Shown here in pieces: positions 6,791 to 29,570 of a DNA stretch of 59,042 bases (within the stretch, counting starts at the first letter, position 1; each line of letters begins with the position of its first letter). A program made the position numbers and the translations under genes. The DNA is from Prochlorococcus sp. AG-402-N08 (GTDB taxonomy: Bacteria > Cyanobacteriota > Cyanobacteriia > PCC-6307 > Cyanobiaceae). The stretch is from contig QCIS01000010.1 in NCBI GenBank assembly GCA_003216535.1, positions 1-59,042 of the forward strand. Reading direction: 5' to 3'. The notes beneath the pieces were generated by a model, which did no database searches, was not told the origin of the DNA, and worked only from the letters and a program-made list of their open reading frames with translations.

Positions 6791-6810
6791 GATATTTTAC
6801 AGCTCCTAAA

Positions 6811-10087: not shown

Positions 10088-10145
10088 TCTTAAAAACCAA
10101 GTCATACTAGCGAGTTACCCAGACTCGCTTTTTTATTGGAAAATC

Positions 10146-11055: not shown

Positions 11056-11130
11056 TGTGTTTGATGTTCTTAAAGTTATAAAAAGTATTTTATTTGTTAG
11101 ATACTTATTTGTATTCATAGCATAAAACAA

Positions 11131-11174
11131 AAAAAGGAGCTAACTGCCCCTTATTGTAGATCGACTGTCAATTA
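11131..11174 (-). promoter_or_regulatory. Promoter-hairpin module, copy 3
   Basis: Minus strand: ATTGACAGTCGATC, TACAAT box, GGGGCAGTTAGCTCC hairpin and T7. It precedes the small secreted protein gene. Confidence 0.6.
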
Positions 11175-11450: not shown

Positions 11451-11496
11451 AAAAAAAGGAGCTAATTGCCCCTTATTTTAGATCGACTGTCAATCA
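11451..11496 (-). promoter_or_regulatory. Promoter-hairpin module, copy 4 (type copy)
   Basis: Minus strand: GATTGACAGTCGATC, TAAAAT box, GGGGCAATTAGCTCC hairpin, T7, then the ATG of the DUF3764-like gene. This is the clearest copy. Confidence 0.65.
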
Positions 11497-11521
11497 AAAA
11501 TAATTGATTTAAAGTTAAAAG

Positions 11522-12032: not shown

Positions 12033-12094
12033 TTTTTATTGCTTGGCTTACTAGTTCTAAATTACCTTCCTATTCTTCCAACAGCTTCAATTGA
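12033..12094 (+). pseudogene. Fossil 3' end of arsJ next to pstS copy 2
   Basis: The sequence from TTTTTATTGCTTGGCTTACT onward matches the last codons of arsJ in E1 (WLTSSKLPSYSSNSFN and stop), including 28 bases outside pstS. No other arsJ sequence is present. It shows that this pstS once had a convergent arsJ neighbour, as in E1. Confidence 0.8.
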
Positions 12095-13234: not shown

Positions 13235-13630
13235 CTAAAACCATCCAGTCGTGCTCTTACTTAGGTTTGTATCATTCAGGTTGGCACCACTCAGGTCGGC
13301 ACCACTCGTGTTGGCACCAAACAGGTTGGCACCACTCAGGTCGGCATTACTCAGGTTGGCATTACTCAGGTTGGCACCAGTCGCGTTGGAACTACTCAGG
13401 TCGGCATTACTCAGGTTGGCACCCCTCAGGTTGGCATACCCCATTTCGGCATTACTCAGGTTGGCACCCCTCAGGTCGGCACCACTCAGGTTGCGCCCAC
13501 TTAGTTTTGTATGGGCTAAGTTGCCACCTGGTCTTATCTCACTTTCTTTAGGTTTTAAATGGTCAGCAAAAGATGCTGTTGGTGTAATAGATAGAGCCAG
13601 TATTCCTGCAATTGCTAATGCTTTTTTCAT
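13235..13630 (-). CDS. Secreted pentapeptide-repeat protein
   Basis: A 131-residue protein. The signal peptide MKKALAIAGILALSITPTASFA is followed by about fifteen pentapeptide units of the A(D/N)LSx type (GADLRGANLSNAEMGYANL and so on), which form a right-handed four-sided beta-helix. Thylakoid-lumen or periplasmic pentapeptide proteins are common in cyanobacteria; function is unknown. The repetitive DNA produces false open frames on the other strand. It lies last in E3, 67 bp from the scar. Confidence 0.88.
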   Translation of the reverse strand: MKKALAIAGILALSITPTASFADHLKPKESEIRPGGNLAHTKLSGRNLSGADLRGANLSNAEMGYANLRGANLSNADLSSSNATGANLSNANLSNADLSGANLFGANTSGADLSGANLNDTNLSKSTTGWF

Positions 13631-13827: not shown

Positions 13828-14439
13828 TTACTCGTTAGCATAAGTGTCGTTGTAAATTTCAACTAGATTTCTTCCCTTGTGATACCAATACTTGCTCCCT
13901 CTAATATTTCTAGGATTATCTAATAATTTTTTAGTTAATCCAGTTAAGTAAAATTCTTCGCCTTCATATTCAACCTTTCTTTGATTCTTGACTGTACAAG
14001 TTATATTTTGATCTAGTTCATATGTAAATACATCTCCAACCTCTAGACCCATCTCAAAATAATTAACTACTGGTAATCTATCTTTTTTAAACTTTTCAAC
14101 TGATGCTTTAGCTTCTACATCAACACTCTCAGCTTCTTTTCTAACTGATGGAGTCATATCTTTTATTTCCAGTAACTTTAAAAAAGCTATTGCTTGCTCA
14201 GGGTCAATCTTAAAAAATTCTCTTTTAATATTTACTCTGTCTTTCTTAAATCCTAAATGGAAAGCTTTTTCAGTCTCATCTACATCTTTAACTTTTGCCG
14301 CATATTCACACTCAAAAGGTAATGGAACTCCAGTTGAATATAAATCTGCAAGTCTTAAAGAGACATCTCTAGTAGTTTTTCCAATCTTCACTAAATCTGG
14401 CATTGCAGGATTAGTTAAGACATAAACAGTGCCTTCCAT
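13828..14439 (-). CDS. GIY-YIG nuclease-domain protein (T5orf172/MUG113 type)
   Basis: A 203-residue protein with an N-terminal GIY-YIG-like domain: GTVYVLTNPAMPDLVKIGKT supplies the two beta-strand motif, RLADLYSTGVPLPFE the following helix, and REFFKID the later strand with the glutamate. The C-terminal half contains a beta-rich region (VGDVFTYELDQNITCTVK) and KYWYHKGRNL, resembling a small DNA-recognition domain. Such proteins are presumed DNA-cleaving and are frequent in phages and islands. It is first in E4 beside the att scar. Confidence 0.75.
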   Translation of the reverse strand: MEGTVYVLTNPAMPDLVKIGKTTRDVSLRLADLYSTGVPLPFECEYAAKVKDVDETEKAFHLGFKKDRVNIKREFFKIDPEQAIAFLKLLEIKDMTPSVRKEAESVDVEAKASVEKFKKDRLPVVNYFEMGLEVGDVFTYELDQNITCTVKNQRKVEYEGEEFYLTGLTKKLLDNPRNIRGSKYWYHKGRNLVEIYNDTYANE

Positions 14440-14674: not shown

Positions 14675-15100
14675 CTGAGAAAAATATCTGAACCTAAAGT
14701 ATCTGTAGAAAGATCAAGGAATATGTCTGCAATTAAATCTAAGAATACAAAGCCTGAAATTGCAGTAAGGAAACTTTTACATTCAATGGGATATAGATTC
14801 AGATTGCATGGGAAAGATTTACCAGGTTCTCCTGATATTGTTCTACCAAAATATGAAACAGTCATTTTTGTTCATGGATGTTTCTGGCATAGGCATGAGA
14901 ATTGTAAGTATGCTTCTACTCCAAAAACAAGAAAAGAATTCTGGGAAAGTAAATTTAAAACAAACGTAAAAAGAGATAAGGAAATACAGGAAAAAATAAA
15001 AAATACTGGTTGGAAATCCGTCGTTATTTGGGAATGTGAACTTAAAGATAGAAAACTCTTAATTCAAAAGTTAGAAGATATTTTTAAAGAAAAAAATTAA
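14675..15100 (+). CDS. vsr: Vsr very-short-patch-repair endonuclease
   Basis: A T:G mismatch endonuclease that repairs deamination at cytosine-5-methylated sites. Core motifs: PEIAVRKLLHSMGYRFRLH, LPGSPDIVLPKY with the catalytic aspartate, VHGCFWHRH and the C-terminal VVIWECEL. The conserved helix RSRNMSAIK lies partly upstream of the first ATG (14723), so the true start is likely non-ATG. A CTG at 14675 stands 4 bases after GGGGG, which would be a good ribosome-binding site. If 14723 is used the protein has 125 residues and loses that helix. It is convergent with the AIPR gene, which fits the methyltransferase further along the cluster. Confidence 0.85.
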   Translation: MRKISEPKVSVERSRNMSAIKSKNTKPEIAVRKLLHSMGYRFRLHGKDLPGSPDIVLPKYETVIFVHGCFWHRHENCKYASTPKTRKEFWESKFKTNVKRDKEIQEKIKNTGWKSVVIWECELKDRKLLIQKLEDIFKEKN

Positions 15101-15132
15101 TATTTTTTCTAGAGAAAGAAATTTTTGAAATA

Positions 15133-17223
15133 TCAATCTTTAAATCCATTATCTTTAGCTCTCTCTATAATTTTTATTAATCTAGGATATTGCCAATCAA
15201 CTGGAACAAAGTTTACTTGAATAGCTCGATATAACAAATTTTGATCTCTAGGTGAAATTATTCTTTTTTGCATGCAGAACTTAAGAACTTTTTTCCAAAA
15301 ATCAGATCCTAAGCTTACGATATAGTTTTCAGTTTCTAGCTGATTATCAAATTTTTGATTTTTTGAGGCTTCTTTAAGTACACCTTTTTCTTCCTCTTTA
15401 CTTAATAGAGTATTTTTAAAATCTTCACCTAAAGATACTGGTACTTTTTTAAATAATTCCCAGCAATCTAAACTTTTAGCATATTCTCCTGTATTTAGTG
15501 GAGCACCTTTTGGGCGTTCTGCTTCAGTTAAATGTATTACCGCCTCTCTACCCATCAAAAGGAGAGAATTTTCTAATTCTATATTTAGGGATTGTGATTT
15601 CCAAATGTTGTTGTAATTTATAGCTTTATTTTTTCTCTTTATTGTGTGTAATAATTTTGCAATTCCATAGGCAACTATATTTCTTTTATAACCTTCTGCA
15701 TACCAATCTGCTTTTTTTACTAATTCATCAAAGCGTCTAAAAATTAAAACTTTGGCCATTGAATATTTAAAAAATGTTTCATCGAAAAATGTTTTATCCC
15801 CTTCTTCACTCGCCTGTTTTTTTGTAAATGCTTGAGTAAATTCTACATAACATTTTTGAGATCCTTTACTTACTAAATCAGGCTTGCATAAAAATGTATT
15901 TATTACTATTGCTAATTGGTCTTTAGTTACTTTTTGATTCTTTGGGTTTAATGCATCAAATTTTTTCTTTTCAGCTGTGGATTTTAATAATGCTTTTTCT
16001 TGGTTATATTGTCCTCTTGCCCTCTCATAAAACCATCTAGTTTGAATCGTAGTTCCTATTTTTTGAGGAGCTAAAATTTTTCTTGAATAATTCTCCATAT
16101 CCACGTGGAACTTATTATTTGAGGTGAAGTCAATATGATTTACTTTATTTTGACTATTTGCATATTCAGATATTTTTGGAACTATTTCTTCTGCTCGACT
16201 TTCATTCGAAACAACTGATAACTTCATTTGTATTTGAATATCTTTTAAGTTCTCTTCGAAACCTCTTTTAATAGCTTCATGCACTGATGCGGTAGTTTGT
16301 CCTCCATTTACTATTTGAAAATTAGTTATTGAAGATATAAAAAGACCCCCTTTTTCAGAAGTTTGATTGAAGTCTTTTTTTATATCAGATGCAGTTGCAG
16401 TGATCCCATTGTTATAACTAAAAAACATGTTGGGATTTTGCTCAATGGTAGACCTTATTCCTTTGTTAACCTTTCCCTTTGCCTGCAAAAAAACACGTAC
16501 GTTTTGTTCTAATAATCTGCTACCCCAGACTTTAAATATTTTTGCAAGAGTATACCCTGGCATTATGCAAAGATAACTTTCAAAATCATTATTAGGACTG
16601 GATGCATTGAGAGCAGTTATGGAGCCTCCATATTCTCCTAAATTTATTATGAGTTCCTCCTTTTCTTTCCCGGAAATCATTAGATCATAAAAGCGATTGA
16701 TATCCCAAGGTACAAATTCTGCATGAATACCATTAACAGGAATTGGATCAAAATCTCTATTTCTAATATTTAAAGATTTATTAGTAATAAATACTATTTT
16801 TATTTTTTGTATTTGATCCCAAGTTGAAGAAATAAGATCTGTTAAGCCAAATTCTGGGCTTGTCATGTCTAAGTCTTCTCTGAAAGTTGGATCTAATGAT
16901 TTTGAGATGAAATTTATCGCTTTTTTGCACATTGAGTCGATTTCTGATCTGTTAATTGATACTATTTCTTCTTGATTTGAAAAATCGCAAACAATCAAAC
17001 TTAAAGTCGCGTCATCATCAATTGGATTGCCACCGTAACCATCTATCTTTAATCCTGGTTTATCAAAAAAACATCTATCAGCAGTTGGTATAACTTCTGC
17101 TTTTATCAAGTCTTCGGAAAAAAAATAAAAGAACGCATCTTCTGTTAGCTCGTTGCTGCTTTCTGCTTCAACTAATATTTCATTTCTTAATTCTGAATGA
17201 AATTCTTCTAAAGTTTTTTCCAT
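15133..17223 (-). CDS. AIPR-family protein (abortive infection phage resistance)
   Basis: A 696-residue protein of the AIPR family. The central signature includes MFFSYNNGITATASD and FQIVNGGQTTASVHEAIKR, followed by a long helical region. AIPR proteins are found with phage-resistance and restriction systems and are thought to have nuclease-related activity. It is the last gene of the MORC-Z1-PD-(D/E)XK-AIPR run. Its start overlaps the end of the upstream gene by one base (TAATG), so the two are translationally coupled. Comparable gene sets were described by Iyer, Abhiman and Aravind for MORC-containing restriction systems. Confidence 0.85.
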   Translation of the reverse strand: MEKTLEEFHSELRNEILVEAESSNELTEDAFFYFFSEDLIKAEVIPTADRCFFDKPGLKIDGYGGNPIDDDATLSLIVCDFSNQEEIVSINRSEIDSMCKKAINFISKSLDPTFREDLDMTSPEFGLTDLISSTWDQIQKIKIVFITNKSLNIRNRDFDPIPVNGIHAEFVPWDINRFYDLMISGKEKEELIINLGEYGGSITALNASSPNNDFESYLCIMPGYTLAKIFKVWGSRLLEQNVRVFLQAKGKVNKGIRSTIEQNPNMFFSYNNGITATASDIKKDFNQTSEKGGLFISSITNFQIVNGGQTTASVHEAIKRGFEENLKDIQIQMKLSVVSNESRAEEIVPKISEYANSQNKVNHIDFTSNNKFHVDMENYSRKILAPQKIGTTIQTRWFYERARGQYNQEKALLKSTAEKKKFDALNPKNQKVTKDQLAIVINTFLCKPDLVSKGSQKCYVEFTQAFTKKQASEEGDKTFFDETFFKYSMAKVLIFRRFDELVKKADWYAEGYKRNIVAYGIAKLLHTIKRKNKAINYNNIWKSQSLNIELENSLLLMGREAVIHLTEAERPKGAPLNTGEYAKSLDCWELFKKVPVSLGEDFKNTLLSKEEEKGVLKEASKNQKFDNQLETENYIVSLGSDFWKKVLKFCMQKRIISPRDQNLLYRAIQVNFVPVDWQYPRLIKIIERAKDNGFKD

Positions 17224-18206
17224 TAGATTTCTTTTAAAAATTCCTCTTTACTAATTTCAAAGTCTTTAAGTTCATTCATATCCAATGTATAAGATACATC
17301 TTCTATGCCAGAGGATAACTTGCTACCAACTATCTTTGGAAAACTATTTATAACCTTATAAAATACAATCTCTTTTATATCCCATTTTAAATCTGAATAG
17401 TCATCTTCCCAATCAAAACCATATTCATAAATCAGATTATTAAACTGAGAAATTAAATTAGGATTTTTTTTATCAATTTCTTGCTCTACATATAAACACC
17501 ATTGATTTAGATCTTTACTTTTTTCTTCTTCAGAAAAATCAATTCCAAATACAGCTAAAAATAAATTTGTTTCTGGGTTTTCTTCAAGTTGATCCTCGGA
17601 AGATATTTTAATTTTTGGTTTTGAGATTGTTCTCTTGGCCTTAATTTCTATCTGGGTTTTTTTTAAATCAAAATCTTTGCTTCCACCAAGTGGTCCTTGC
17701 CAGCTTTCCAACGCCATTTCAGCAGAAGTGTTTATTTGATTTATTAGTATTTCACTTAAAAAATAAAGTTCACCTATTAACCCTTTTTGTTCACTATTTG
17801 ATAATTTGCTATCTCTCTTGCCAGCTAGCAAATTAACCCAACGCATGCATCTTCTAAGAAGAACAGAAACAGTTCCTTGCTCAGTATCTTCGTTAACACT
17901 GGCATTTATAAGAAGACAACATAACTCAGAAAAAATTTCTAATTGCTGTATATCTAATAGTGTAATTTTTAAGAATCTTCTATTAGAAACTAATTCATTA
18001 ATTATAAGACCTCTTAATTTTGGTAAATCTTTTTTAGGTGGGATTGTGGTGTTACCTTCTTGCGCTTCAAACAACAAGCAGTGATTTTTTTCTTCATCTA
18101 TAGCCCATAGAAATCTTCGTTTTATTTTTGGATCTGTAAATACTGGGATAGCCTTTTTCCCAGGCGGTATTTTTGACCAAGGATTTTTTTCTTTAATTTC
18201 CATCAC
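17223..18206 (-). CDS. PD-(D/E)XK motif nuclease (DUF4420 type)
   Basis: A 327-residue protein with a PD-(D/E)XK core: GLIGELYFLSEILI supplies the helix with the glutamate, then GGSKDFDLKKTQIEIKAKR supplies D and E-x-K. I take it as the restriction nuclease of the cluster. The start overlaps the 3' end of the Z1 gene by 14 bases and its stop overlaps the AIPR start, so the three are one translation-coupled unit. Length and motif order fit the DUF4420 family. Confidence 0.8.
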   Translation of the reverse strand: MMEIKEKNPWSKIPPGKKAIPVFTDPKIKRRFLWAIDEEKNHCLLFEAQEGNTTIPPKKDLPKLRGLIINELVSNRRFLKITLLDIQQLEIFSELCCLLINASVNEDTEQGTVSVLLRRCMRWVNLLAGKRDSKLSNSEQKGLIGELYFLSEILINQINTSAEMALESWQGPLGGSKDFDLKKTQIEIKAKRTISKPKIKISSEDQLEENPETNLFLAVFGIDFSEEEKSKDLNQWCLYVEQEIDKKNPNLISQFNNLIYEYGFDWEDDYSDLKWDIKEIVFYKVINSFPKIVGSKLSSGIEDVSYTLDMNELKDFEISKEEFLKEI

Positions 18207-20910
18207 TACCTTTTAAATCATTTATCTCATTTGTTTCTAAGATATCGAAGAAATTAGTCTGTCTCCAAGTTTTGTTTACGATATATTCTGTTTGTTCTTG
18301 TTCATATTTTGTTGGTGGAAAAGATATTGACCATGTTGCATGAGCAAAATCATCTAAATCATTTGAGAATCTTGGACTTTCTCTATCTTTAAAAAGATCA
18401 ATAAAGTGAATTACTAATAAAGGTCTTCTCCCTTTCTTTCTAAAGATAGAATCAGGGTAAGCATCTTCTTCTAATTCTTTTTTATTTATCCTTGTTCTAT
18501 TTGCGTCTCTCCAGTCGTGAATAGCTTCAGAAACTTCTTCTTCACTTAAACCAACTTTTTCAATTCCTCTTCCAGAAATTTTACCATTTGCAAATTTAAT
18601 TTTTTCATCAGATTCAATAATTAATTGTCTGCCTGAAGTTCCGATGGATATATTCCCAATGGGAATAGTTCTATATTCATATCTTGATTTCTTTAATGGG
18701 GAAGTTATAAATACATCCCAAATACCTAATTCATCTGTTCTTGCTGTTATGTATTTTCTAATTGCATAGATTGGATTAGTCATAGGAGATCTAGACTGGA
18801 ATTCATTTAAATATTCTTCTATAAAATCTAAATTGATATTTTTGAATAAAATTCCAGGTGAGCCAAAATGCCTTTCGGGTTTTAAGGGTTTGTTTTTAGC
18901 TAATTTCAAAATTAGATTTTTTGTGATATTGAAATTATTAATTAATATTTTTCTATCTTTTGGCAAAGTAGTAGTCTCAATAAACTTTGATGACAAAGCG
19001 ACGTTAATGCTTCTTTTTTCTCCTACCCCCATTTTGTTTAATGCAGTTATATAAAGAGATAGGGGATTATCTCTGACCATTAAACCGAATTCTAAAGGGG
19101 ACTTTTTTAATCTCTCCATCTCTTTTACTTGTTCGTTTATATTATCAACCTCTTCAGCTATGAATTGATAAAAATCTATAGCATTCAAAGTCATCCATAT
19201 TCTGCATAAATCTTCATAACCATCCCTATATCCAAACCATCTTCCCATTTGGAGGAGAGTATCACACATTTGGGTATTTCTTAAAATATAAGTAATTACT
19301 AATCCATGGACAGTAAAGCCTCTCGATAAAGAATGTCCTCCTATAACTATGTAAGATTTTGCTCTTATCTTTGAATCTCCGTCTTTATATTCTACTGGGT
19401 CAGAAGATTCTTGATTAATAGATTTTATTTCAATTCTTAGATAAGTTTCTTTAATTGCATTTTTTACTTCATACCAAGATTCTTTTATATTTTTTGAGTA
19501 ATATTTTTCAAAAACTTCTTTAAATTTTTTTAATCTATTTAAGGAATCTTCATTTTCAAGAAAAATATTATGCCTCAATAAATTATCTATTTTTGCTTTA
19601 TATCTAATAATCTCTAATTTTAATTGTTCTTGTACTGCTGTAAATAATGAGACATTTATCATCATTGAAATATCTTTGGTTTCATAAATTCCCCTTAAGT
19701 AAAAGATTGCATTTACTAAATAAAAAGAAATTATTGATTCCTTTAAGCTATTTGGAATTTTTGGATCTAGAGATTTTTTATGCTTTAAAGGTAAATAATC
19801 TTCATTATCAGTAATTTTGCAGATGGTTTTTGAATTAAATGGATCTTCATCAATGAATATTTTTTTTGGTCCAAAATAATTTGTTGGAGGGGAGATTCTA
19901 GTTATAAAATTTCGAGGGAAAAGGTCACCTCCAATCATTTCATTTTGATCATCAGGATCAATAAAGATATTTGCAAATGGAGTTGCTGTATATCCAACGT
20001 AAGAACTTCTTGTAAATGTATTTAAAATCTCTCGTATATCTTTATTTATTTTTGTTGGATCGTCATCATCCTTTCCATATTTAGTATTGATTGAGGCATT
20101 ATCAGCTTCATCATCGATCATTATCATTGGTAAATTAATTTTCCCATTTCTATGTAATTTTGAACTCGCAAAATATTTCTTTAAATTATTTAAAACATTA
20201 GTATTTTTTTTAACTACTGCTACTACAGGTTTTTCATCCTTCTCTAGTTTGAATGCAATTCTTTGCAAAGCAGGAGAATCAAAATCAAATTTATCTGTTA
20301 TTGAACTTGGAGTTTTGACATCATTAACTACGGATGTTGGTTTAATAAATCCATCATTAATTCTTTTTTGAGTTTGTTGTCTTAAATTATTATCTCTTCC
20401 AGCGATAACAATAATTACCTTGTAACCCAAGTCAGCAGCCTTCGTTATAAGTCCTATATAATTAGCAGTCTTTCCACTTTGTACGGAGCCAATTACTAAT
20501 CCTTTTCTATCCCATAATTTATTATTTTCTGGATCACCACACTTAGATATTATTTTTTCTGTATCTAATCCTAGAGTAGTAATAACATTATCTGAAAAAC
20601 CACCTTTTCTAGATAAAAGAGTTTCATAATTGTCCCAGTATCCTTCATTCAATAATTGTTTCCGTTCAGGTGTTAACCATTCATCGAAGTCATCAGATTC
20701 ATCTTCGATGAGGGAACACATGTCCATTTCAATTCCCTCTATCTCTTGAATTTTTAAAATTACTTCTTGAATATCTTCCTCACACAACTTGGAGAAAATT
20801 GGTGCATTTGCGTTGAATCTTACTGATGTTTCGATTGAATCTTCATAGGTATTCCCTACTTGATGTAAATAACCTTGTGAAAGTTTTAGTAATGTTGTTT
20901 TAAGATCCAT
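18193..20910 (-). CDS. Z1-domain P-loop ATPase
   Basis: A 905-residue helicase-like ATPase. The Walker A motif IGSVQSGKTANY is at residues about 140-150 and the Walker B motif MIDDEADNAS near 265. The Z1 domain follows, with IVIGGHSLSRGFTVHGL and MGRWFGYRDGYEDLCR corresponding to helicase motifs V and VI. Z1 proteins accompany MORC-like ATPases, DUF4420 nucleases and AIPR proteins in restriction-type clusters, where they presumably move along or remodel DNA. It lies 14 bases downstream of the MORC-like gene and overlaps the nuclease gene. Confidence 0.88.
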   Translation of the reverse strand: MDLKTTLLKLSQGYLHQVGNTYEDSIETSVRFNANAPIFSKLCEEDIQEVILKIQEIEGIEMDMCSLIEDESDDFDEWLTPERKQLLNEGYWDNYETLLSRKGGFSDNVITTLGLDTEKIISKCGDPENNKLWDRKGLVIGSVQSGKTANYIGLITKAADLGYKVIIVIAGRDNNLRQQTQKRINDGFIKPTSVVNDVKTPSSITDKFDFDSPALQRIAFKLEKDEKPVVAVVKKNTNVLNNLKKYFASSKLHRNGKINLPMIMIDDEADNASINTKYGKDDDDPTKINKDIREILNTFTRSSYVGYTATPFANIFIDPDDQNEMIGGDLFPRNFITRISPPTNYFGPKKIFIDEDPFNSKTICKITDNEDYLPLKHKKSLDPKIPNSLKESIISFYLVNAIFYLRGIYETKDISMMINVSLFTAVQEQLKLEIIRYKAKIDNLLRHNIFLENEDSLNRLKKFKEVFEKYYSKNIKESWYEVKNAIKETYLRIEIKSINQESSDPVEYKDGDSKIRAKSYIVIGGHSLSRGFTVHGLVITYILRNTQMCDTLLQMGRWFGYRDGYEDLCRIWMTLNAIDFYQFIAEEVDNINEQVKEMERLKKSPLEFGLMVRDNPLSLYITALNKMGVGEKRSINVALSSKFIETTTLPKDRKILINNFNITKNLILKLAKNKPLKPERHFGSPGILFKNINLDFIEEYLNEFQSRSPMTNPIYAIRKYITARTDELGIWDVFITSPLKKSRYEYRTIPIGNISIGTSGRQLIIESDEKIKFANGKISGRGIEKVGLSEEEVSEAIHDWRDANRTRINKKELEEDAYPDSIFRKKGRRPLLVIHFIDLFKDRESPRFSNDLDDFAHATWSISFPPTKYEQEQTEYIVNKTWRQTNFFDILETNEINDLKGSDGN

Positions 20911-20924
20911 ATCTATTTATAAAT

Positions 20925-22340
20925 TTATAAACTATCTTTTATGGAATTCCAATTTTCGCGGAATAAATCTACTTCTTGGAGGATATCATAACTTTCTTCT
21001 TCAGATAAACCTTGTTTAATGTAGTAATCAATAATATTCTTTGCGTGATCAAGAATTTCTTTAATAGTAAATTCCTCTGTTATAAGATTTTTTGGATTTT
21101 CAGCATAATCAGAGGATATTAATTGAAGCGGAATTAATTTTTCTATTAAAGCTAATATTTTTTCTGTTTCATCAGCTAATTCATCGTTTAAAGAATTTAG
21201 TAAAAACTTTATTGAAGGATGTTCTTTACTAATTTTATAAATTATTTGCCTATCACTCGAAACAAATCTTTCCCAAATTGGTAACTTATCCTTGCTTATT
21301 AATGCCTTAGCTCTCTTTGTTATTTTTTTTATTGCAGGTCTTGAAAAGGCATCAATTAAATCTCTTAGTCTCCCTCGAATTTGTTGAGGAGGAGTTGCTC
21401 TACTTTTTTTAACATCCAATTGCCATTCAGCATCCGAACTATTATCAATATCAATGGATATTCTACAAAGTTTTCTCATTTCTAATTTTCTTGCCAAGCC
21501 AAACCATGTTGCTTTGCAAATTAATCTTCCATTTCTATATAAATAAAATCCTTGATTAGCTAAATAACCTTCTTCGCCTGCATGATATTCCCATTCTTCA
21601 GAAGAACATTTAGTGTGATGAGGCAAAGCATATGAAATGACCTTACACTTATTAGCTATTATTTCCGGAGGTTGATTGGTTGACTTTTCCTTAAAAAATG
21701 GATCTGCTGAAACACAAACATTACCATTTACTGAAAAAATAATTTTATTGCCATAATCACCACTTATATATCTATGAAAAACAAGACTTATGTGTTTTGT
21801 TAATTGATCAGTAACTGATTCAAAATATTCTTGAGAGTTTTTTTTATCTTCTTTTTCTAAGGTGTCAATTTTTTCCCATCTTATTATTGTTCCATTAGTC
21901 TCTAATGCATTTTTTCCCTCAAGTTTTTCTATATCCATAAACCATTCATTTTCTTTCTCAACAAGGTCTAAATCCCATATGGCTTCAAATGATTTGTCAT
22001 TTTTTTTTGTTTTTACAATTAGTTTTTTAGATTGCGAAAAGGAAGCTGTCTTAAGACCTAATCCAAACCTTCCAAGATCTTCTTTATCTCTCTCATGAAG
22101 TGGGCTTTTACTTCCTAGTCTCATTGCCTCTTCAAGTTCTTCACTCGTCATCCCAGTTCCATTATCTTTTATTTCAACGAAAGGCTCTTGATTATCCCAA
22201 TTACATAAAATATCTATTTTTGTTGCTTTTGCCGAAATAGAATTATCAATAATATCAGCAATTGCATTATTAAATGAATAACCTAAACTTCGCATACTCA
22301 TAATTAAAGAGTTCGCATTAGGTCTTATTTTCTTTCTCAC
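20925..22340 (-). CDS. MORC-like GHKL ATPase
   Basis: A 471-residue protein with an N-terminal GHKL ATP-binding domain: NNAIADIIDNSISA (N box, catalytic Asp/Asn), KDNGTGMTSEEL (G1 box) and LGRFGLGLKTAS (G2 box, the GLGLK form typical of MutL/MORC relatives). The C-terminal half is helical and acidic. In this context it is the MORC-type ATPase of a restriction-like system and may act as an ATP-driven clamp on DNA. It heads the AT-rich half of the cluster. A 222-bp gap without a gene separates it from the methyltransferase. Confidence 0.88.
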   Translation of the reverse strand: MRKKIRPNANSLIMSMRSLGYSFNNAIADIIDNSISAKATKIDILCNWDNQEPFVEIKDNGTGMTSEELEEAMRLGSKSPLHERDKEDLGRFGLGLKTASFSQSKKLIVKTKKNDKSFEAIWDLDLVEKENEWFMDIEKLEGKNALETNGTIIRWEKIDTLEKEDKKNSQEYFESVTDQLTKHISLVFHRYISGDYGNKIIFSVNGNVCVSADPFFKEKSTNQPPEIIANKCKVISYALPHHTKCSSEEWEYHAGEEGYLANQGFYLYRNGRLICKATWFGLARKLEMRKLCRISIDIDNSSDAEWQLDVKKSRATPPQQIRGRLRDLIDAFSRPAIKKITKRAKALISKDKLPIWERFVSSDRQIIYKISKEHPSIKFLLNSLNDELADETEKILALIEKLIPLQLISSDYAENPKNLITEEFTIKEILDHAKNIIDYYIKQGLSEEESYDILQEVDLFRENWNSIKDSL

Positions 22341-22562
22341 TTGAAAAATGAATATTTATAAAAACTTAAACTTATTATTAAAATCTTTCAAGTTGATGTT
22401 ATAGCTTTTCATTATTTATGGATTTTGGATATTCTGTTTCATATTGCTTTTGGAGCTCATGATCAATTTGTTTCTTAGGGGGATATCATTTTTTTCTTTT
22501 TTATTCAAGTAATTATTTATAGTACAAAGTTTCTCTTTAAAGATCATTTATTTGTTTTTTTA

Positions 22563-24668
22563 TTATGAGGCAAATGATGAATCTAAAGGTGAAATTTTAG
22601 AAATTCCAACTTTGGAATCAAAGAAATTTATTGCTGAATTCGAGTTGATTATTTTTTTAATTATTTCATCTTTTTTATCTTGTTTTGATAGGGCAAGTAA
22701 TGCGCAATAGCCCATACCATCTTTATCCATTTCTAGTAAATGACCTATATGTATATCTCTATTCATATTGCTGAATTTTAAAATTTCATGATCAATATCC
22801 ATGATATGAGCAATAATTCTGCTAATTAATATGGATTGTTTTATCTCTGTGGTTAATCCAACTGTAGCCAGTGCTCCTCTTACCGAATTCCTGGAAAACA
22901 AATCATATTCTTTTCTTGCGATTTGACCCCAGTCGATTTCATCTTTAATAAGTTCTCCAGCAATCAGTTCTAGTGAAGGTATATATCTTTCAAGACTAAA
23001 ACTTTTTATTTTCATTTTTCTGGCTTTATCTTGCAGAAAAATTTCAGGATTAGGCCAAAAGTTTTTTAATCTTTGATAGGTATCTTTTTTCCTTTTTTCA
23101 AGATCTTTATCTCCTAAGATCGCAGGTTTATTTTTTTCTTTATTATTTTTTTTGAAAGTCTCTGGCAGTAAATTTCCAAGACATGCATTCCATGCCCTTA
23201 TATCGCTTGGAATTATTTTTCTGCCTTCCCTTTTTTTTGTCCATATAAGTTCAACTTCTTTTTTGTTTGATTCATACCAGTTAATAAGATTACCTCTAAG
23301 TTTGGGAACCATATCAGGTTGATTAAATTCGTTCTCATTTTTAATCGATTTCATTAAAGATTTGCCGAGTTCAAAAGCAACAATCGGTGCAACGGCTTCT
23401 CCAATCTGGTGGAATCTATGAGAAGGCCCTCCGTAAAAATTGAACCCATCTGGAAAAGACTGAACTCTCGCTGCTTCTCTTACTGATAAGGTTCTATTCT
23501 GGTGAGGATGAATATACCAATAACCATCTTTTGACATATGCGCAGTTATTGTCAGACATGGTTCATTGGGTTTGAGGATATTGTATTTATCACCAAAACT
23601 CATTTTCTGATTTTCCTTAACTTTCTTGCCTTCTCTAAAAGCTTTGCTTGTAACGGAATATCTTCTTTGCTCTTCTGATAATTGAGAATATTTGACTCCA
23701 GTTGATCTCATTAATTTAAAGGTCTCAAGATCATCTCCCCTGACTCTTCTTATCAGATGATCGTGAATCATCTCATCATCAATATCCAACCATTTCCTCA
23801 TTAATTTCTGATAATCCGTTTTTGGTCCTTCATAGCTATATTTTTCGTCCCACTTTTCATCCCATCCTCCTTTAAGAGGAGGGAGATCTGAAATCGCCTC
23901 GTCTAATGTGACGGCCTCTTCGACAGAATCATATTTTGGCTTTGGCCACTTCAAAGGAGCGCATTCATTTATTTTTGTTCCGGAAATAAATAATCTTGGC
24001 CTTAGCTGAGGCACTCCATACTGCCATGCATAAATCAATTTAGGATTTATTCGATATCCAGCTTTCTCAGCTCTATTAATTATTGATCTATATATTTCCT
24101 GCTCACCTGTCTGGGCAATATCGGTAACATTCTCCATTAGAAAAGCTTTTGGCTTAACCCGCTCCACTATCGAAATAAATGATTCCCATAATTCTCTTCT
24201 ATCTTCGTTCAGTTCCTGATGTTGAGCAGAAACTTCTTCGTTATGTTTTCTCCATTTGATATTTCGGGAGAAAGGCTGGCATGGTGGTCCACCTGCAATA
24301 AGTGATATTTCTCCGCACTTATTAAGCTGATCTGAAATCTCATTAATAATTTTTCTTTTACTTAAATCACATTCATATGAACATCCACCAAAATGATGTC
24401 TGTGAGTCATTATTGAATCGTTTCTAATATCGCAAGCCAGTATTACATCAAAATTTGCACGATGAAGTCCAAGGCTTAAACCCCCAGCACCTGAAAAAAG
24501 GTCAACTGCAAAATAAGGTTCTTTTTTTATTGATCGAAGTTTTGCTGCATATTGAGGAAGTTCATCAAAACTGCATGAATCTATATGGGCCTCAAGTTCT
24601 GATGAAGGCCCCCTTACCGGACTTAATCTGTGTGGATCAATTTTCCCAACTGCATTTTTATGAATCAT
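22563..24668 (-). CDS. dcm: DNA cytosine-5 methyltransferase
   Basis: A 701-residue C5-methyltransferase. Motif I VDLFSGAGGLSLGL, motif IV GGPPCQPFSRN with the catalytic cysteine, motif VI MENV, motif VIII QLRPRLF and motif X GEAVAPIVAFELGKSL are all in order. About 270 residues follow motif X, an unusual C-terminal extension with no motif I recognise. It would protect host DNA; Vsr at 14675 fits its mutagenic by-product. Its start overlaps the end of the DUF6339-like gene by four bases (ATGA), tying it to the three upstream genes. Confidence 0.93.
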   Translation of the reverse strand: MIHKNAVGKIDPHRLSPVRGPSSELEAHIDSCSFDELPQYAAKLRSIKKEPYFAVDLFSGAGGLSLGLHRANFDVILACDIRNDSIMTHRHHFGGCSYECDLSKRKIINEISDQLNKCGEISLIAGGPPCQPFSRNIKWRKHNEEVSAQHQELNEDRRELWESFISIVERVKPKAFLMENVTDIAQTGEQEIYRSIINRAEKAGYRINPKLIYAWQYGVPQLRPRLFISGTKINECAPLKWPKPKYDSVEEAVTLDEAISDLPPLKGGWDEKWDEKYSYEGPKTDYQKLMRKWLDIDDEMIHDHLIRRVRGDDLETFKLMRSTGVKYSQLSEEQRRYSVTSKAFREGKKVKENQKMSFGDKYNILKPNEPCLTITAHMSKDGYWYIHPHQNRTLSVREAARVQSFPDGFNFYGGPSHRFHQIGEAVAPIVAFELGKSLMKSIKNENEFNQPDMVPKLRGNLINWYESNKKEVELIWTKKREGRKIIPSDIRAWNACLGNLLPETFKKNNKEKNKPAILGDKDLEKRKKDTYQRLKNFWPNPEIFLQDKARKMKIKSFSLERYIPSLELIAGELIKDEIDWGQIARKEYDLFSRNSVRGALATVGLTTEIKQSILISRIIAHIMDIDHEILKFSNMNRDIHIGHLLEMDKDGMGYCALLALSKQDKKDEIIKKIINSNSAINFFDSKVGISKISPLDSSFAS

Positions 24669-25378
24669 GCGACCTCTTCACTCTGGGTATCAATTAACTT
24701 CTGTAGTTGTTCTTCACTTAAAAGATCAAGACATATTGAACCTCCAAGGGAGTTGAGTTTTCTTATTGCAATTCTTACTTTGCTGTCTGGCAATTCAACT
24801 AGTTTTTCAGTAAGTATTCTATTGATCTTTGGGATCAGGCCAAATTCTCGATCGCTCAAACCAAGATGAAGTTCCTGACTGGTAAATAATTTTTTGACCA
24901 GGGAATAATCAGAATGATCATTCTCCATCATCCTGTCGGCGGCGAAAAAAAGTCTGGATAAAGTATTCCTGCCATGACCATTTATTGATGATGTACCAAG
25001 AAATCTAAGTGATGGAACATGTTTCTTTCCTGTTCCGACAGTAAATCCATCTTCTGGATCAACGGGAATACTACCTCTCCATCTAAGCCACGGAATATTT
25101 GGATATCTTATTACGCATAGCCAGTGCCACATCCTCATATCAGTAAGAATGTGAGAAGGCAGAGATTTGAATGTTGTATGAACACACTCAACTAATCTTG
25201 CATCTAGGTTTGCACCAATTACTTTTTCGAGAATAAGTTGATCTATAAGTGTTGAGAGATTTGTAAGATCAACCTGGCAGTTCACTTCCTCTATACTTAT
25301 AGAATCCGGATTCCTTAAAGCAGAAATAAGTCCATTACTTATTAGAGGTGATTTCAATCTGAAGAGTTTTTCGCTCAT
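24665..25378 (-). CDS. DUF6339-like protein of the methyltransferase operon
   Basis: A 237-residue soluble protein. The middle contains MRMWHWLCVIRYPNIPWLRWRG, a tryptophan-rich pattern I associate with DUF6339; the C-terminus is helical (IRKLNSLGGSICLDLL). No catalytic motif is evident. Four-base ATGA overlaps join it to both neighbours, so it is translated in a fixed ratio with the 343-residue protein and the methyltransferase. Family call is moderate; a defence role is inferred from context. G+C is visibly higher than in the MORC-Z1 genes. Confidence 0.6.
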   Translation of the reverse strand: MSEKLFRLKSPLISNGLISALRNPDSISIEEVNCQVDLTNLSTLIDQLILEKVIGANLDARLVECVHTTFKSLPSHILTDMRMWHWLCVIRYPNIPWLRWRGSIPVDPEDGFTVGTGKKHVPSLRFLGTSSINGHGRNTLSRLFFAADRMMENDHSDYSLVKKLFTSQELHLGLSDREFGLIPKINRILTEKLVELPDSKVRIAIRKLNSLGGSICLDLLSEEQLQKLIDTQSEEVA

Positions 25379-26406
25379 GCAACCTCCTCTTTTTCAAGTT
25401 CAGTTGGAATTTCTGATTCAAAACTGCACCCTCTTGCCATTATTTCGGCCAATTCTAAAATCTTTGTTTCCTGCTGGATTATTGAACTCATTTTGAGAAT
25501 AAACTTCTGAAAAGATTCGGGTGATCTAAGTTCATTGGCAAGAGCAACAACCGCCTCATGTGGAGATATATTTGTTTCAAGAAGATTCTTGGAAAATAGA
25601 GATAGAGTCTGAAGTTGTGATGGTGGCAATTGCTCAACAATTTCTTCACTGCTCAGCTCACTGTTTGTATTCAACATATTCTGGATGGAGTTCATGGAAA
25701 TAGAAATAAGCATGGTCCAAACAGTGGAACAAATTGAGGTGAAGATGATATCTCTCTGAAGGGAATTGATATCTTTCCTCAAGGACTTACTCATAAGAAG
25801 TTTTTTCAATGATGCAGTCACCTCTGCATTCATCTCAATTACTGGAGGTTCACTTGGGATCAATCTCCACAACTTATCTTTACTCTCAGGGGGAAAGGAT
25901 TGCCACTTTATGTTGAAGATGGAGTCATTATTAGCTTCGGCGGTGGCAAAACGAATGGTATGAATCAGACTTCTCCCAATTATCTGCCCCATTTCTGCGG
26001 CATAGCCGCTCCTTGATTTTTCTCCGGCAAATTGTTCTGTTCTTACAAGAAGCGCTTCTGCCCTTACTTCCTCTCCATTTAAAAAAGGTATGTAGAAAGT
26101 TTCGGAAAAGAAGAATCCACCACCGCCATCTTCTAAATCAATTATTTCTCTTCTACCTGTTGATCTGCTTATAAGACGACATATGAATTTAACAGGAGGA
26201 TTTTCCCTTTCTGTGGGATGAAGCGTTTCCTCCCATTCAAATGGTGCAGTAAGCAGTATTTCAAGTTTTGTCTTTTCAAGCTTGCCATTGAACTTGAAAG
26301 TAATTCCATTGCTTACTTCCTGAATCACCTCTTCAGAAATACTGTCTGGAGCTGTTATTCGAAATGCTCCATCAAGATCTATTGTTTTCCAAGGGACAAA
26401 ATGCAT
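25375..26406 (-). CDS. Uncharacterised protein of the defence cluster, 343 residues
   Basis: I do not recognise the family. Residues 1-180 look beta-rich (ITFKFNGKLEKTKLEILLTAPFEW, glycine run DGGGGFFFSETF). Residues 190-343 are helical, with a hydrophobic stretch around TSICSTVWTMLISISM that could be a membrane segment or buried helix. It overlaps the DUF6339-like gene by four bases and begins two bases after the GHKL ATPase gene ends. Its fixed place between an ATPase and a methyltransferase suggests it is a core subunit of the module. Confidence 0.65.
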   Translation of the reverse strand: MHFVPWKTIDLDGAFRITAPDSISEEVIQEVSNGITFKFNGKLEKTKLEILLTAPFEWEETLHPTERENPPVKFICRLISRSTGRREIIDLEDGGGGFFFSETFYIPFLNGEEVRAEALLVRTEQFAGEKSRSGYAAEMGQIIGRSLIHTIRFATAEANNDSIFNIKWQSFPPESKDKLWRLIPSEPPVIEMNAEVTASLKKLLMSKSLRKDINSLQRDIIFTSICSTVWTMLISISMNSIQNMLNTNSELSSEEIVEQLPPSQLQTLSLFSKNLLETNISPHEAVVALANELRSPESFQKFILKMSSIIQQETKILELAEIMARGCSFESEIPTELEKEEVA

Positions 26407-26408
26407 AA

Positions 26409-28373
26409 TTAACCCACCTTCCTGAAGCCTGCAATTTCAGGGTTCACTCCCGATGGAGCTTTGACTAAACATTCAAAAGGTACTGATGAAAATTGGTTTT
26501 CAGCAGAGAATACAAATCTCCTTGAATCTGAGTCGTCATATGAAATATATTTTTCACTCCCCATTAGTCGCATATCACTTATTCCCCACATCTCTCCCTG
26601 GCCACTGTCTGCAATGCTCTGGAAAGATAAATGTACTTTTGCAGTTCTGTTCGATTCACCTGATCGTACTAATTCGCCCGCTATTCTCCATCCATTTGCT
26701 TTTTTAATGAAGGTGCATTGATCTCTGTCTATAACAACTTCAAGTGCGGAATTTTTTATCTTGGATGGACTTTTCTTTTCTTTAATTCCTCTGCCAAGAT
26801 TAAGCATTCTTTTCAGCATTTCCGGTCCTTCATCAGGAGGTGCAATAAATGAGGTCAGCAAGTTCTGAATGAGCATCTGCCTTAGTTCATATCTGATTCC
26901 CCTCAATCTGCTGGCATGACCTCTCCAGGTATAACTTTCTCTCAGTCTTCTTGTTGTAGGCAGCCAGTCATCATGAGTCACTGGTTCACCTGCACGAAAA
27001 TATTCTTCAGCGAATGCGTTATTTTCCTTGTTCAACTCTGTCTTTTCAGATTCGGCAATCTCATTCAATGATGTACCTACAAATGCAGCTGCACAATATG
27101 AACCTCCATCACTTAACTTTGTACCTTCGGCATAATCTATAACCATTCCAGAACCCCTTATAAGTGCAATGGTTGAACGGCATGGCAGACATTCCTCTTT
27201 TGAAGAGACTCTTGTAACACCAAGCCTGACAATACTTTTGAACTCATCATGCAGAAGGTCAGGATTGTCTGAGGGCTCCACTCTTGTAGGTATGGGAAAC
27301 TCAATATCAATTGAGGAGCTGTCCCCCGGGAAGAGTGATTTGTCATTTGCAAAAGGTTCGACTCTTCCGCACTCAACGAATGGAGACCATATCTCATCAG
27401 CATGTGCTTCAGATATATATTCAGCTGATTTTCCCTCTTCCCGAAATACTCTTGCTTTTACATCGAGTCTTTTCCAGCTGATTGCAGGCCAGAACCATTT
27501 TGATGCAGCTTTTGTGAAATCTCTGCAGAGCTCCTCGGGATCTCTTATTCCTGATGAACCGGTATCATCGCGATCAGGTTCATGAAAAGTTGGGATGAGT
27601 ATAGTTGTTCCGCACTCGGTTTCATTGTCACGATTGAGAAGAATTTTTTCTGCATCTCTTTCTTTCATCCAGGTGGATTCTGCAATAGGAATTCCATCTT
27701 TTTCACTTTCAGATCCCATGTAGGCACCATCAAGCCATGATTTACCTTCCATTTCATGAGCAGGAATTTCGCTTCTACCGAAAATTCTTAATTTCTTTTT
27801 GCCTTCGATTCTTGATGAGAATAGAACAGTGAATATTCTTGAATGCATCCAGCTGACGGCCTTCCCCAGTCCAAAGCTTCCTCCTAATCCAGACTCCTTT
27901 CCGGTTGAAAAATTCTGCACACATAACTTACGGAAATTTCCTTTCTCGTCCCAGTCATCACCTGTCAGGCCATCAGTTCCGTAATCACTGATTTTCAGAC
28001 AGACAAGATCAGATGATTTCATAGATTCAAGTCCAGCTTTCAGGGTGAGAGCAGTTCCACTTGAACCTTTCACAGATGAAAGATGAGGGATTAGAGTCTC
28101 ACTATTAATTGATTTAAGAAATTTATCTTTTTTCTCTCCCTTGAGCACTATCAGATCAAAAAATATTTTTACTTTTTTATCCTTTCTCTGATCGAGGCTG
28201 TTCTGACAGATTTCTCTTACAAGTGTTTCCAGCAGGGATCGTTTTCTCTGTGATCCTCCTGCTTCAAAAATTTCACTTGCAGCATTACCACCACTGGATC
28301 TACCCTGTCCAAGCGATGGTGTTCCAATCCATTTCAGTTGTGTCTTTGCTGTTTTCAAATCCCCTTCAGACAC
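26409..28373 (-). CDS. Second GHKL-type ATPase of the defence cluster
   Basis: A 654-residue protein with a GHKL ATPase signature: LVREICQNSLDQ (N box, residues about 51-62), KISDYGTDGLTGDDW (G1 box) and GGSFGLGKAVSWM (G2 box). It is distinct from the MORC-like gene at 20925, with a longer C-terminal region ending in a beta-rich part. First gene of the four-gene methyltransferase unit. A promoter is expected in the roughly 285 bp upstream (28374-28658), where I see no gene. Composition is G+C-richer than the flanks, suggesting a separate origin from the MORC-Z1 half. Confidence 0.8.
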   Translation of the reverse strand: MSEGDLKTAKTQLKWIGTPSLGQGRSSGGNAASEIFEAGGSQRKRSLLETLVREICQNSLDQRKDKKVKIFFDLIVLKGEKKDKFLKSINSETLIPHLSSVKGSSGTALTLKAGLESMKSSDLVCLKISDYGTDGLTGDDWDEKGNFRKLCVQNFSTGKESGLGGSFGLGKAVSWMHSRIFTVLFSSRIEGKKKLRIFGRSEIPAHEMEGKSWLDGAYMGSESEKDGIPIAESTWMKERDAEKILLNRDNETECGTTILIPTFHEPDRDDTGSSGIRDPEELCRDFTKAASKWFWPAISWKRLDVKARVFREEGKSAEYISEAHADEIWSPFVECGRVEPFANDKSLFPGDSSSIDIEFPIPTRVEPSDNPDLLHDEFKSIVRLGVTRVSSKEECLPCRSTIALIRGSGMVIDYAEGTKLSDGGSYCAAAFVGTSLNEIAESEKTELNKENNAFAEEYFRAGEPVTHDDWLPTTRRLRESYTWRGHASRLRGIRYELRQMLIQNLLTSFIAPPDEGPEMLKRMLNLGRGIKEKKSPSKIKNSALEVVIDRDQCTFIKKANGWRIAGELVRSGESNRTAKVHLSFQSIADSGQGEMWGISDMRLMGSEKYISYDDSDSRRFVFSAENQFSSVPFECLVKAPSGVNPEIAGFRKVG

Positions 28374-28658
28374 TATATAAAGCGTTAATAAATGATAGAT
28401 GCCACGATCTGATTGTCATCTCAAGGCCAGAGAATTGCAACATTTGGAAGTCAAAATATAAAAATTAATTACATATTTTATTCAAGGGAAAACACAATTC
28501 AATTGAAGTCATTCAATAAAAGAAAAAGTATTTCCATTAGTACTTAAACTAAATCTGCACATAAGGAAAACTTTCCATAAGATTGTGTTATTAAAAATTT
28601 TTTATCTAGAAGTTATTTTCATTTAAAAAGGAATATAGGTAGTAACGTTTCAATTTAA

Positions 28659-29570
28659 TTAAATTATTTCTTCCAAAGTAGAAACGTATATATTTTGCAT
28701 TTTAGCTAGCCAATTGATTTTATCTGCCCAGGTACTTTTACTGGTTAAATCTCCGTCTGATTTTTGATGGAAGAATACACCCCTTGTCTTATCACCTTCA
28801 CCTATTGATGAACCCAGATATTCTTCTAAGGTATCTTGATGAGGTTCGAGTTGTTTATATACATCTTCTGAATCAGCATTCCTTATACCTCTTATAAAAA
28901 TTCCGACACATTTTTTTGCTAAATAAATTGATACTACAAAATTTGAGTTAGGAACATTTCTCCAACGAGAACTTTTTGACTTCAAAGATTCATAAGTTTC
29001 TTGTTCCGGATGTATTTCAATCAATCTCTGCCAAAATTCAAATCTCCATTTAGACAATTCACTTTGTTCTCCAACTGTTCTTACTTTATTTTTAATTTTT
29101 CTATCCCAACTATTTGGCTTGGCTACTGTTTCAAACATTGGAGCAATAGAGGAATTGTCAATTTGAACAGCTTTTACTTGCACAGCAAAAAAGGCAAAAG
29201 GTTCTACTGTATTCTCATTAAGCCATTTAATTGCTGAAAGGTGAGGTTCTCTGAAACTACTTGCTACCCATATAATTACTTCTGCTTCTAAACCTGCAAG
29301 ATAAGTAAGAATTTGTCCAAGATGTGTATGATCAGTCTTTTCAAGTTGGTTCTCAATTAATATTCTTCTGTCATTCTGCGGATCTCTGGCAATGATATCT
29401 GCCGAAAAAGATTCTACTTTTACTTCTTGCCCTTCAAGTTCTAATTGAATTCCTATTTCGTTAGATAGATATTCAAGATTATCTGCAAGCCAAGGAGTAA
29501 AATCTTGAGCTTCATGACTCCATGCTTCTCTAAGATTTACGTTTTTAAGTGTCCCTAATTTAGTATTCAT
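28659..29570 (-). CDS. DUF4268-domain protein, PD-(D/E)XK-like
   Basis: A 303-residue protein. The N-terminal domain has a nuclease-like core: SADIIARDPQNDRRILIENQLEKTDHTHLGQ, that is D, then E-x-Q in place of E-x-K, followed by LTYLAGLEAEVIIWVAS. The C-terminal DUF4268 part includes FEFWQRLIEIHPEQ and the acidic GVFFHQKSDGDL. DUF4268 proteins are frequent near restriction systems and mobile elements; activity is unproven. It has its own 5' region and reverts to the AT-rich composition of the island, so I count it as an associate and not a member of the operon. Confidence 0.78.
   Translation of the reverse strand: MNTKLGTLKNVNLREAWSHEAQDFTPWLADNLEYLSNEIGIQLELEGQEVKVESFSADIIARDPQNDRRILIENQLEKTDHTHLGQILTYLAGLEAEVIIWVASSFREPHLSAIKWLNENTVEPFAFFAVQVKAVQIDNSSIAPMFETVAKPNSWDRKIKNKVRTVGEQSELSKWRFEFWQRLIEIHPEQETYESLKSKSSRWRNVPNSNFVVSIYLAKKCVGIFIRGIRNADSEDVYKQLEPHQDTLEEYLGSSIGEGDKTRGVFFHQKSDGDLTSKSTWADKINWLAKMQNIYVSTLEEII

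Follow-up and report, generated by a model that had tools for sequence, protein, structure and literature searches.

Does a run of nine defence genes with two different GHKL ATPases and a single cytosine methyltransferase form one machine, or several that have come to lie side by side? The question is raised by a 59,042-nucleotide stretch of Prochlorococcus sp. AG-402-N08 (contig QCIS01000010.1, positions 1 to 59,042; hereafter the window), in which these genes occupy an exchangeable unit at 14711–28478. A first-pass annotation read them as one nine-gene system. Comparison with other genomes points instead to a constant block of four genes, an ATPase-led trio with the 5-methylcytosine (m5C) methyltransferase, and a cassette which other strains replace or lack; the same data support the accompanying suggestion that the trio makes up a distinct module, linked to the rest by way of the methyltransferase. 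We propose, with a probability of roughly two in three, that the whole is a composite restriction-modification unit in which one methyltransferase serves two ATP-dependent restriction machines, one constant and one exchangeable.

A constant block and an exchangeable cassette

All nine genes are intact open reading frames (ORFs) in the order originally described. On the reverse strand, beginning at the far end, a paraMORC2-type GHKL ATPase of 654 amino acids (aa) [26409–28373; PADLOC PDC-M33A, 2e-28] is followed by a 343-aa protein in the PDC-M33B position [25375–26406], a 237-aa DUF6339 protein [24665–25378; PF19866, 1.5e-17; PDC-M33C, 1.7e-12] and a 701-aa m5C methyltransferase with a C-terminal extension of about 250 aa [22563–24668; PF00145, 9e-56, residues 55–439], in which the motifs DLFSGAGG, PPCQ and ENV are in place. 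The same strand continues with four genes resembling those of the MZA system, each of which matches its Mza model below the cut-off: an MzaB-like MORC ATPase [20925–22340; HATPase_c_3, 5e-35; MzaB, 6e-95] with GHKL motifs and the MORC motif GFYLYRNGRLI at 264, an MzaC-like DEAD-Z1 SF2 motor [18193–20910; Z1, 8e-65; MzaC, 5e-128] with GKT, DEAD and the Z1 motif DTLLQMGRWFG, an MzaD-like PD-(D/E)XK protein of family DUF4420 [17223–18206; DUF4420, 7e-64; MzaD, 1e-30] with IEIK at 186, and an MzaE-like AIPR protein [15133–17223; AIPR, 6e-87; AIPR_N, 6e-33; MzaE, 1e-92]. At the distal end of the unit, convergent on the forward strand, lies the mismatch endonuclease gene vsr [14723–15100; Pfam Vsr, 3e-30; TIGR00632, 7e-43, above cut-off], the ORF of which starts at 14723 and not at 14675.

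The contacts of two to four bases described for the first four genes are present (a gap of 2 base pairs (bp) between the ATPase and 343-aa genes, then two overlaps of 4 bp), as is the 222-bp spacer before the MORC gene. The further claim that the succeeding genes overlap again fails for MORC and Z1, which are 14 bp apart, while Z1 and DUF4420 overlap by 14 bp and DUF4420 and AIPR by 1 bp. The trio is G+C-richer, as had been noticed (0.377–0.415 versus 0.29–0.305 in the MZA half and vsr), with the methyltransferase gene at 0.349 overall and 0.283 in its bases 1801–2100. The block is not a chance assembly, because its DNA is conserved in other genomes with defined edges at 14711 and about 28478, beyond which the flanks differ.

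Among 266 genomes of the genus, DUF6339 occurs in 17 and this methyltransferase in 16, all 16 carrying both; we term the trio plus methyltransferase the hub, and note that several of the 16 hub genomes are drafts. The remaining genome with DUF6339, G040, carries a divergent quartet that includes its own methyltransferase (L047). Eight loci of named Prochlorococcus genomes contain the block or parts of it at 84–97% protein identity, and another genus of the family (G520, L054) has it at 49–58%. A plasmid of Synechococcus elongatus (L064) carries the trio and methyltransferase in the same order, at 30–41% identity and again with two 4-bp overlaps; there an Abi gene adjoins them and no MZA genes were seen within 14 kilobases (kb) around them. 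By these sequence comparisons the trio and the methyltransferase METHYLTRANSFERASE are one constant four-gene block.

What follows the block varies. An MZA B-C-D-E cassette is found in four hub genomes (the window's own, G000, with G007, G004 and G216, the last read across two contigs), a second trio with a small ORF in four (G006, G023, G030, G252), and a convergent Z1-DUF4420-ATPase-B-C cassette, on the opposite strand, in five (G001, G019, G022, G136, G182). The last gene of this Z1 cassette matches DUF6339 in Pfam only in G019 and G182, and the G019 match falls just below the cut-off when the gene is scanned singly. In G146 nothing separates methyltransferase and vsr, and in G075 and G261, which stand outside the tally of 14 resolved cassettes, the contig ends inside the methyltransferase gene. 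Over the aligned part the hub methyltransferase is 83–96% identical to that of the window, whatever cassette follows. Loci with other cassettes match the DNA of the window from about 28478 to about 22650, break off, and match again from vsr, which closes the unit in 13/13 hub loci (window included) where the contig is long enough. We conclude from the aligned sequences that the Prochlorococcus unit is a constant four-gene block to which a cassette is attached, one that differs between strains or is absent.

These observations bear on the idea of an integrated nine-gene machine with two GHKL clamps in one complex. The co-orientation and short junctions would suit it, as would the recurrence elsewhere of two GHKL proteins around one methyltransferase; however, the cassettes are of three make-ups, one class lies on the opposite strand, G146 has none, and MZA sets occur without the trio. 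We hold it to be very improbable, and a single fused nine-gene machine was rejected since the cassette swaps between strains.

Judged by eye, the last 40 or so residues of the methyltransferase track the cassette class in the 13 loci with a cassette, the Z1 class having two tail types; by the same judgement the tail in the cassette-less G146 resembles that of the second-trio class, as if such a cassette had been lost. A tree of the methyltransferase body requires six cassette changes against a minimum of three, a value as low being reached by 19/200 shuffles, and cassettes of the second-trio and the Z1 type both occur on each side of its only strongly supported split. A Fisher test on the presence of the hub in 10/10 genomes that carry a second M33 set ignores kinship and detection limits, and was given no weight.

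One methyltransferase probably shared by two machines

PF00145 has a match in 69/266 genomes and exactly one in each of the 16 hub genomes, the hub enzyme being the sole match in the genome of the window. Z1 occurs in 25/266: nine carry it in the hub cassette, two further hub genomes (G146, G075) carry it elsewhere, and 14 are non-hub genomes. Ten of these 14 were examined at locus level, and nine have an m5C methyltransferase in the same locus as Z1 (G005, G008, G047, G155, G131, G117, G016, G085, G135), G119 having none there; the four left out (G052, G166, G213, G248) have no PF00145 match on the contig carrying Z1. In G005, G008, G047, G155 and G131, which lack the trio, MzaB-C-D-E, an own 373-aa methyltransferase and vsr lie in one locus (5/5), whereas no hub MZA cassette has its own methyltransferase (0/4). 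The loci of G117, G016, G085 and G135 are of a methyltransferase–533 aa–Z1–315 aa type with no vsr. By sequence the own methyltransferase of G005 is of another family than that of the hub (48/174 residues identical in the catalytic part and 17/88 in the target-recognition region); those of G008, G047 and G155 are 92–96% identical to it, and 168/335 residues are identical in that of G131.

The main ground for supposing that both machines read one mark is that the hub MZA cassettes come without a methyltransferase, that of the trio being the only m5C enzyme seen; the two GHKL restriction machines here probably share the methylation set by METHYLTRANSFERASE. Modularity, cassette exchange and a single m5C methyltransferase for both machines are what the comparison of these genomes supports.

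A contrary view would be that two complete and independent defence systems lie adjacent at a hotspot, the MZA cassette making no use of the hub methyltransferase. Each module does occur alone elsewhere (L064; L140–L144), the chromosomal site hosts several kinds of restriction systems, 222 bp and a step in G+C separate the halves, and G075 has an MZA-like set apart with no methyltransferase nearby. The contrast between 5/5 trio-less MZA loci and 0/4 hub cassettes argues the other way, however, as do the lack of any other m5C methyltransferase seen in the hub genomes and the methyltransferase tail that tracks the cassette type, and we regard independence as quite unlikely.

Proteins of the Vsr family repair T:G mismatches left by the deamination of methylated cytosine, and in E. 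coli Vsr tracks the methylated site. Identity among the Vsr proteins from hub and non-hub loci is 68–97%; if vsr tracks the site here too, this constancy hints that the different methyltransferases may share a site.

By their flanks, six of seven tested non-hub loci lie at the chromosomal site of the hub, namely four MZA sets (G005, G008, G047, G131) and two of the methyltransferase-Z1 type, while the G155 locus, which ends near a contig end, gave no flank match to it. This Prochlorococcus site appears repeatedly occupied by m5C and Z1 restriction systems of varied make-up (L140–L148). In the genome of the window the usual site looks empty: on another contig, 358 bp of its left flank (87%) and 1008 bp of its right flank (97%) meet at a single point, and the unit sits in the window between other genes than those at the usual site. 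Compared with the collected loci, the right flank of the unit in the window matches G182 over 1.1 kb and G019 over 1 kb (the DUF4268 gene), and the left flank gives two matching pieces under 400 bp. On this sequence comparison the unit moves.

Directly upstream of it, at 28659–29570, a DUF4268 protein is encoded [PADLOC PDC-S11, 1e-97]; its gene adjoins the hub in G182 also (L039), and in G019 lies on the vsr side (L041). Two genes on the left of the unit, at 5623–6594 and 12062–13033, are 93% identical at the protein level and are presumably pstS-like. Nearer to it, we take the product of 13235–13630 to consist of pentapeptide-like repeats, and that of the next gene, 13828–14439, presumably to be GIY-YIG/T5orf172-like. 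A phage-borne origin was rejected, the ATPase of the window being found in 0/50,697 phage records and a relative in one; relatives of the trio ATPase occur on a few IMG/VR contigs, and other viral scans gave no relatives or a known contig.

The trio in Prochlorococcus and beyond

The 654-aa ATPase has no Pfam match at E≤1, and was assigned to GHKL by its motifs, an alignment of 19 relatives and PADLOC M33A. Its GHKL motif residues and an ExxxH at 463 are invariant in 19/19 aligned relatives; ExxxH is present in 39/39 trio-ATPase relatives and the MORC motif in 0/39. The passages of Iyer 2008 (PMC2292703) on these ATPases give an ExxxH in the C-terminal part of S5 as the signature of paraMORC2, and at the level of motifs (GHKL motifs and ExxxH, with no MORC motif) the trio ATPase is of this kind. 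The 343-aa protein has no PADLOC or NCBIfam match, and its Pfam matches are weak and under the cut-off. Blastp relates it to homologues in S. elongatus and halophiles, and since two syntenic homologues match PDC-M33B [1.7e-56 and 4.2e-50] this supposed orphan subunit has a family. By family and motif matches the trio is probably the PADLOC candidate PDC-M33, with a paraMORC2-type ATPase. It shares the A-B-C gene order and families of that operon, A and C being matched in the window itself; it differs in that M33B does not match the 343-aa protein of the window, but only those two homologues. Among openly licensed PMC papers none naming DUF6339 or PDC-M33 was found. The structure model of the DUF6339 protein is all-helical at low confidence; mean pLDDT is 54 for it and 51 for the 343-aa protein, from alignments of only 15 and 16 sequences, and Foldseek with these low-confidence models gave no match at E≤0.001. 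Sequence searches of PDB gave no match or nothing convincing.

The trio is also free-standing on bacterial and archaeal plasmids. Among 25 trio loci outside the hub an m5C methyltransferase lies within 5.2 kb in 17, a count made with a profile built partly from loci later scored and with no background rate of methyltransferases near defence genes behind it. The 25 exclude the hub and its cassettes, L069 (a second Lactococcus record, at the record end), the incomplete trios of L117 and L118, and the second trios of L054, L066 and L073. Most annotated contexts hold restriction, Abi, AIPR or methyltransferase genes, so that a non-defence role for the trio was rejected, and its occurrence is not confined to non-defence contexts.

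This company suggests another possibility, that restriction is the work of the MZA cassette only and the trio serves m5C restriction systems as an accessory, for example by clamping or tracking DNA that its partner enzyme has cut or stalled, or by killing the cell once restriction is overwhelmed. The trio stands beside annotated type II restriction endonucleases (REases) in L070, L072, L078 and L079, and its partner on actinobacterial and Bacillales plasmids is an enzyme of this annotated kind. In L065 it lies near a GHKL-type REase_II, which was scored (an ATP-binding protein is in the same place in L067, unscored). The trio alignments contain no nuclease motif. On the other side, the trio and methyltransferase occur with no Z1/MZA or second-trio partner in L064, G146 (L043), G410, G546 and G607, where neighbours were compared by reference proteins or annotation only, so that another REase could be missed. 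We consider an accessory role possible but unlikely.

Several points nevertheless weigh against one methylation mark serving two restriction machines. The hub genomes G146 (L048, 1838–9178) and G075 (L149, 6258–14489) have a Z1 set apart from the hub, with no methyltransferase near that of L048 nor within 20 kb around the MZA-like L149; since the latter lies elsewhere and has no methyltransferase, linkage of MZA to the hub is not necessary. A second methyltransferase could escape detection in those hub genomes that are drafts, the methyltransferase tree is weak (1/11 inner branches starred, besides the shuffles that do equally well), and the tail classes were assigned by eye. Because 8 of the 25 trio loci outside the hub have no m5C methyltransferase in the DNA compared, the trio may not strictly need m5C. 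In two of the eight (L071, L081) the trio is close to type I genes, in L082 to an annotated type II REase, and in L080 it adjoins AIPR; the others are L048 and the viral contigs L075–L077, which have little DNA on at least one side. The trio could be a restriction accessory because in L070, L072, L078 and L079 it adjoins type II systems with their own REase. Finally, no nuclease motif or fold was recognised in the trio from the alignments and poor models, for which reason its standing as a restriction machine is inferential. As separate observations, the Z1 sets of L048 and L149 look as if they relied on the hub enzyme in trans, and L080 is an enterococcal plasmid on which the trio (6788–11551) follows an AIPR-family gene.

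The pairing of two GHKL proteins, thought at first to be uncharacterised, was noted for MORC and paraMORC1 in 2008 and recurs in Prochlorococcus, another genus of its family and haloarchaea. In that other genus (G520) a second, convergent trio-like set follows the methyltransferase; its ATPase [M33A, 9e-18] has a very long branch in the ATPase tree, and neither PADLOC nor Pfam recognised the two partner proteins. Two complete trios flank one methyltransferase in Halomicrobium, and in the poorly annotated record of Halobacterium DL1 there are two such ATPases with one methyltransferase. Halobaculum combines the trio, a methyltransferase and a GHKL-type REase_II, which Haloplanus resembles by annotation. 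In the ATPase tree the hub and second-trio ATPases of Prochlorococcus fall on opposite sides of a supported split and the haloarchaeal pair within one group; pairings of two GHKL proteins around one methyltransferase of the METHYLTRANSFERASE kind therefore probably arose more than once.

Within one ATPase clade, many members have a short conserved ORF (about 62–101 aa) immediately ahead of the trio (L078 7731–7961, L079 7751–7984, L068 8663–8893, L070 8738–8965, L072 8719–8907, L033 7173–7478, and in the gaps L055 3744–4157 and L056 13065–13468). None was seen in the unit of the window, and the two tested gave no Pfam family above cut-off. Relatives of it precede other proteins of 620–800 aa on alphaproteobacterial plasmids (L083–L085).

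Known systems and a proposed mechanism

MZA was reportedly first described by Gao in 2020. The PADLOC and NCBIfam models for MzaB, MzaC, MzaD and MzaE match homologues in the window, all four in order, and the system [NCBIfam NF041932–NF041935] likewise comprises a MORC/MutL-type ATPase, Z1, a PD-(D/E)XK DUF4420 protein and AIPR. It differs in that the NCBIfam scores of the window, 318, 428, 107 and 311 bits, are far from the equivalog cut-offs of 850, 1500, 420 and 1050, and in that an m5C methyltransferase and vsr take the place of MzaA, a sigma factor (PMC9523054). Neither MzaA or a sigma factor nor a PLD or B3 domain was matched among the nine genes in Pfam, PADLOC and NCBIfam (for the methyltransferase, among the best 25 of 59 PADLOC families). 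Another is the putative type II system of Miller 2022, who in the parts of that paper used here describe two types of Z1, DUF4420 and m5C methyltransferase systems (PMC9523054). The type II core, with a Z1 protein of about 925 aa, DUF4420 (printed DUF4220) and a cytosine methyltransferase, and with AIPR and MORC associated, is all present in the window, and by its sequence the MORC-Z1-DUF4420-AIPR half is MZA-like and of this kind. In those parts the methyltransferase belongs to a single system; the one in the window is linked in addition to M33 as a second machine, and its Z1 partner can be exchanged. Their type I, with three core genes plus three and an association with repair endonucleases (PMC9523054), looks by inference like the Z1-DUF4420-trio cassette with its methyltransferase.

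CglI and NgoAVII likewise join a DEAD-Z1 motor protein to an m5C methyltransferase; unlike the present unit, their nuclease is a PLD protein with a B3 DNA-binding domain, and the portions of PMC4267653 and PMC5737866 consulted describe no GHKL, DUF4420 or AIPR component. The resemblance to the operons of Iyer and colleagues that the first-pass annotation had seen in the MORC half holds for the Z1 motif, MORC motif, RE-fold nuclease, DCM and VSR, to which the ExxxH of the trio may be added. Iyer 2008 (PMC2292703) describes these parts, and MORC and paraMORC1 pairs in a restriction neighbourhood; one methyltransferase serving an exchangeable second module is not described in its restriction-operon sections. 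Another paraMORC-related family beside m5C methylases is mentioned in PMC8011034. The eight reverse-strand genes were not found as one characterised system, and the openly licensed literature yielded no paper on a shared methyltransferase with an exchangeable cassette, with no search term aimed at that arrangement itself.

In the composite unit that we favour, the cytosine methyltransferase would mark host DNA at a short site, and both ATP-dependent machines would spare marked DNA and attack unmarked, that is phage, DNA. The constant machine, whose genes overlap that of the methyltransferase, would consist of the paraMORC2 clamp, the 343-aa subunit and the DUF6339 protein, and the exchangeable one, here MZA-like, of the MORC clamp, DEAD-Z1 motor, PD-(D/E)XK nuclease and AIPR protein. 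Once an unmarked site is recognised the GHKL dimers presumably close on DNA upon ATP binding, the Z1 motor might travel along it and the DUF4420 nuclease cut, and the trio may work in parallel through some effector chemistry; Vsr would mend the T:G mismatches arising where methylated cytosine is deaminated. CglI and NgoAVII, DEAD-Z1 systems with m5C methyltransferases, hydrolyse ATP on DNA that carries non-methylated sites and depend on nucleotide hydrolysis for cleavage, as given in the sections of PMC4267653 used here, and the MzaC-like protein has the same kind of motifs as their motor. MORC and paraMORC proteins were proposed to loop DNA between recognition and cleavage sites (Iyer 2008, PMC2292703, in its passages on these proteins). 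For VcSduA, a GHKL-nuclease fusion of a kind once annotated paraMORC3, protection against phage is reported in the portion of PMC12137116 used to depend on the ATPase as well as the nuclease; this supports a defence role for GHKL clamps.

A further, tentative idea, which we think rather unlikely, is that the methyltransferase is a fixed specificity and licensing hub whose cassette-specific C-terminal tail docks swappable GHKL/Z1 motors with no site preference of their own and so tells them which DNA is self. If true, the customary arrangement of a fixed machine with changing specificity subunits would be turned round.

What MORC and paraMORC clamps do in restriction has stayed a matter of prediction ever since 2008. 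Nature supplies a series, comprising the trio and methyltransferase by themselves, the same with MZA, a second trio or a Z1-trio, and also MZA accompanied by its own methyltransferase, which is a ready-made experiment on the contribution of each GHKL clamp and on the source of specificity in ATP-dependent restriction systems. If two machines share one mark, a cell could change its weapon against phages and not re-mark its genome, and a phage that acquired the mark would escape both machines together.

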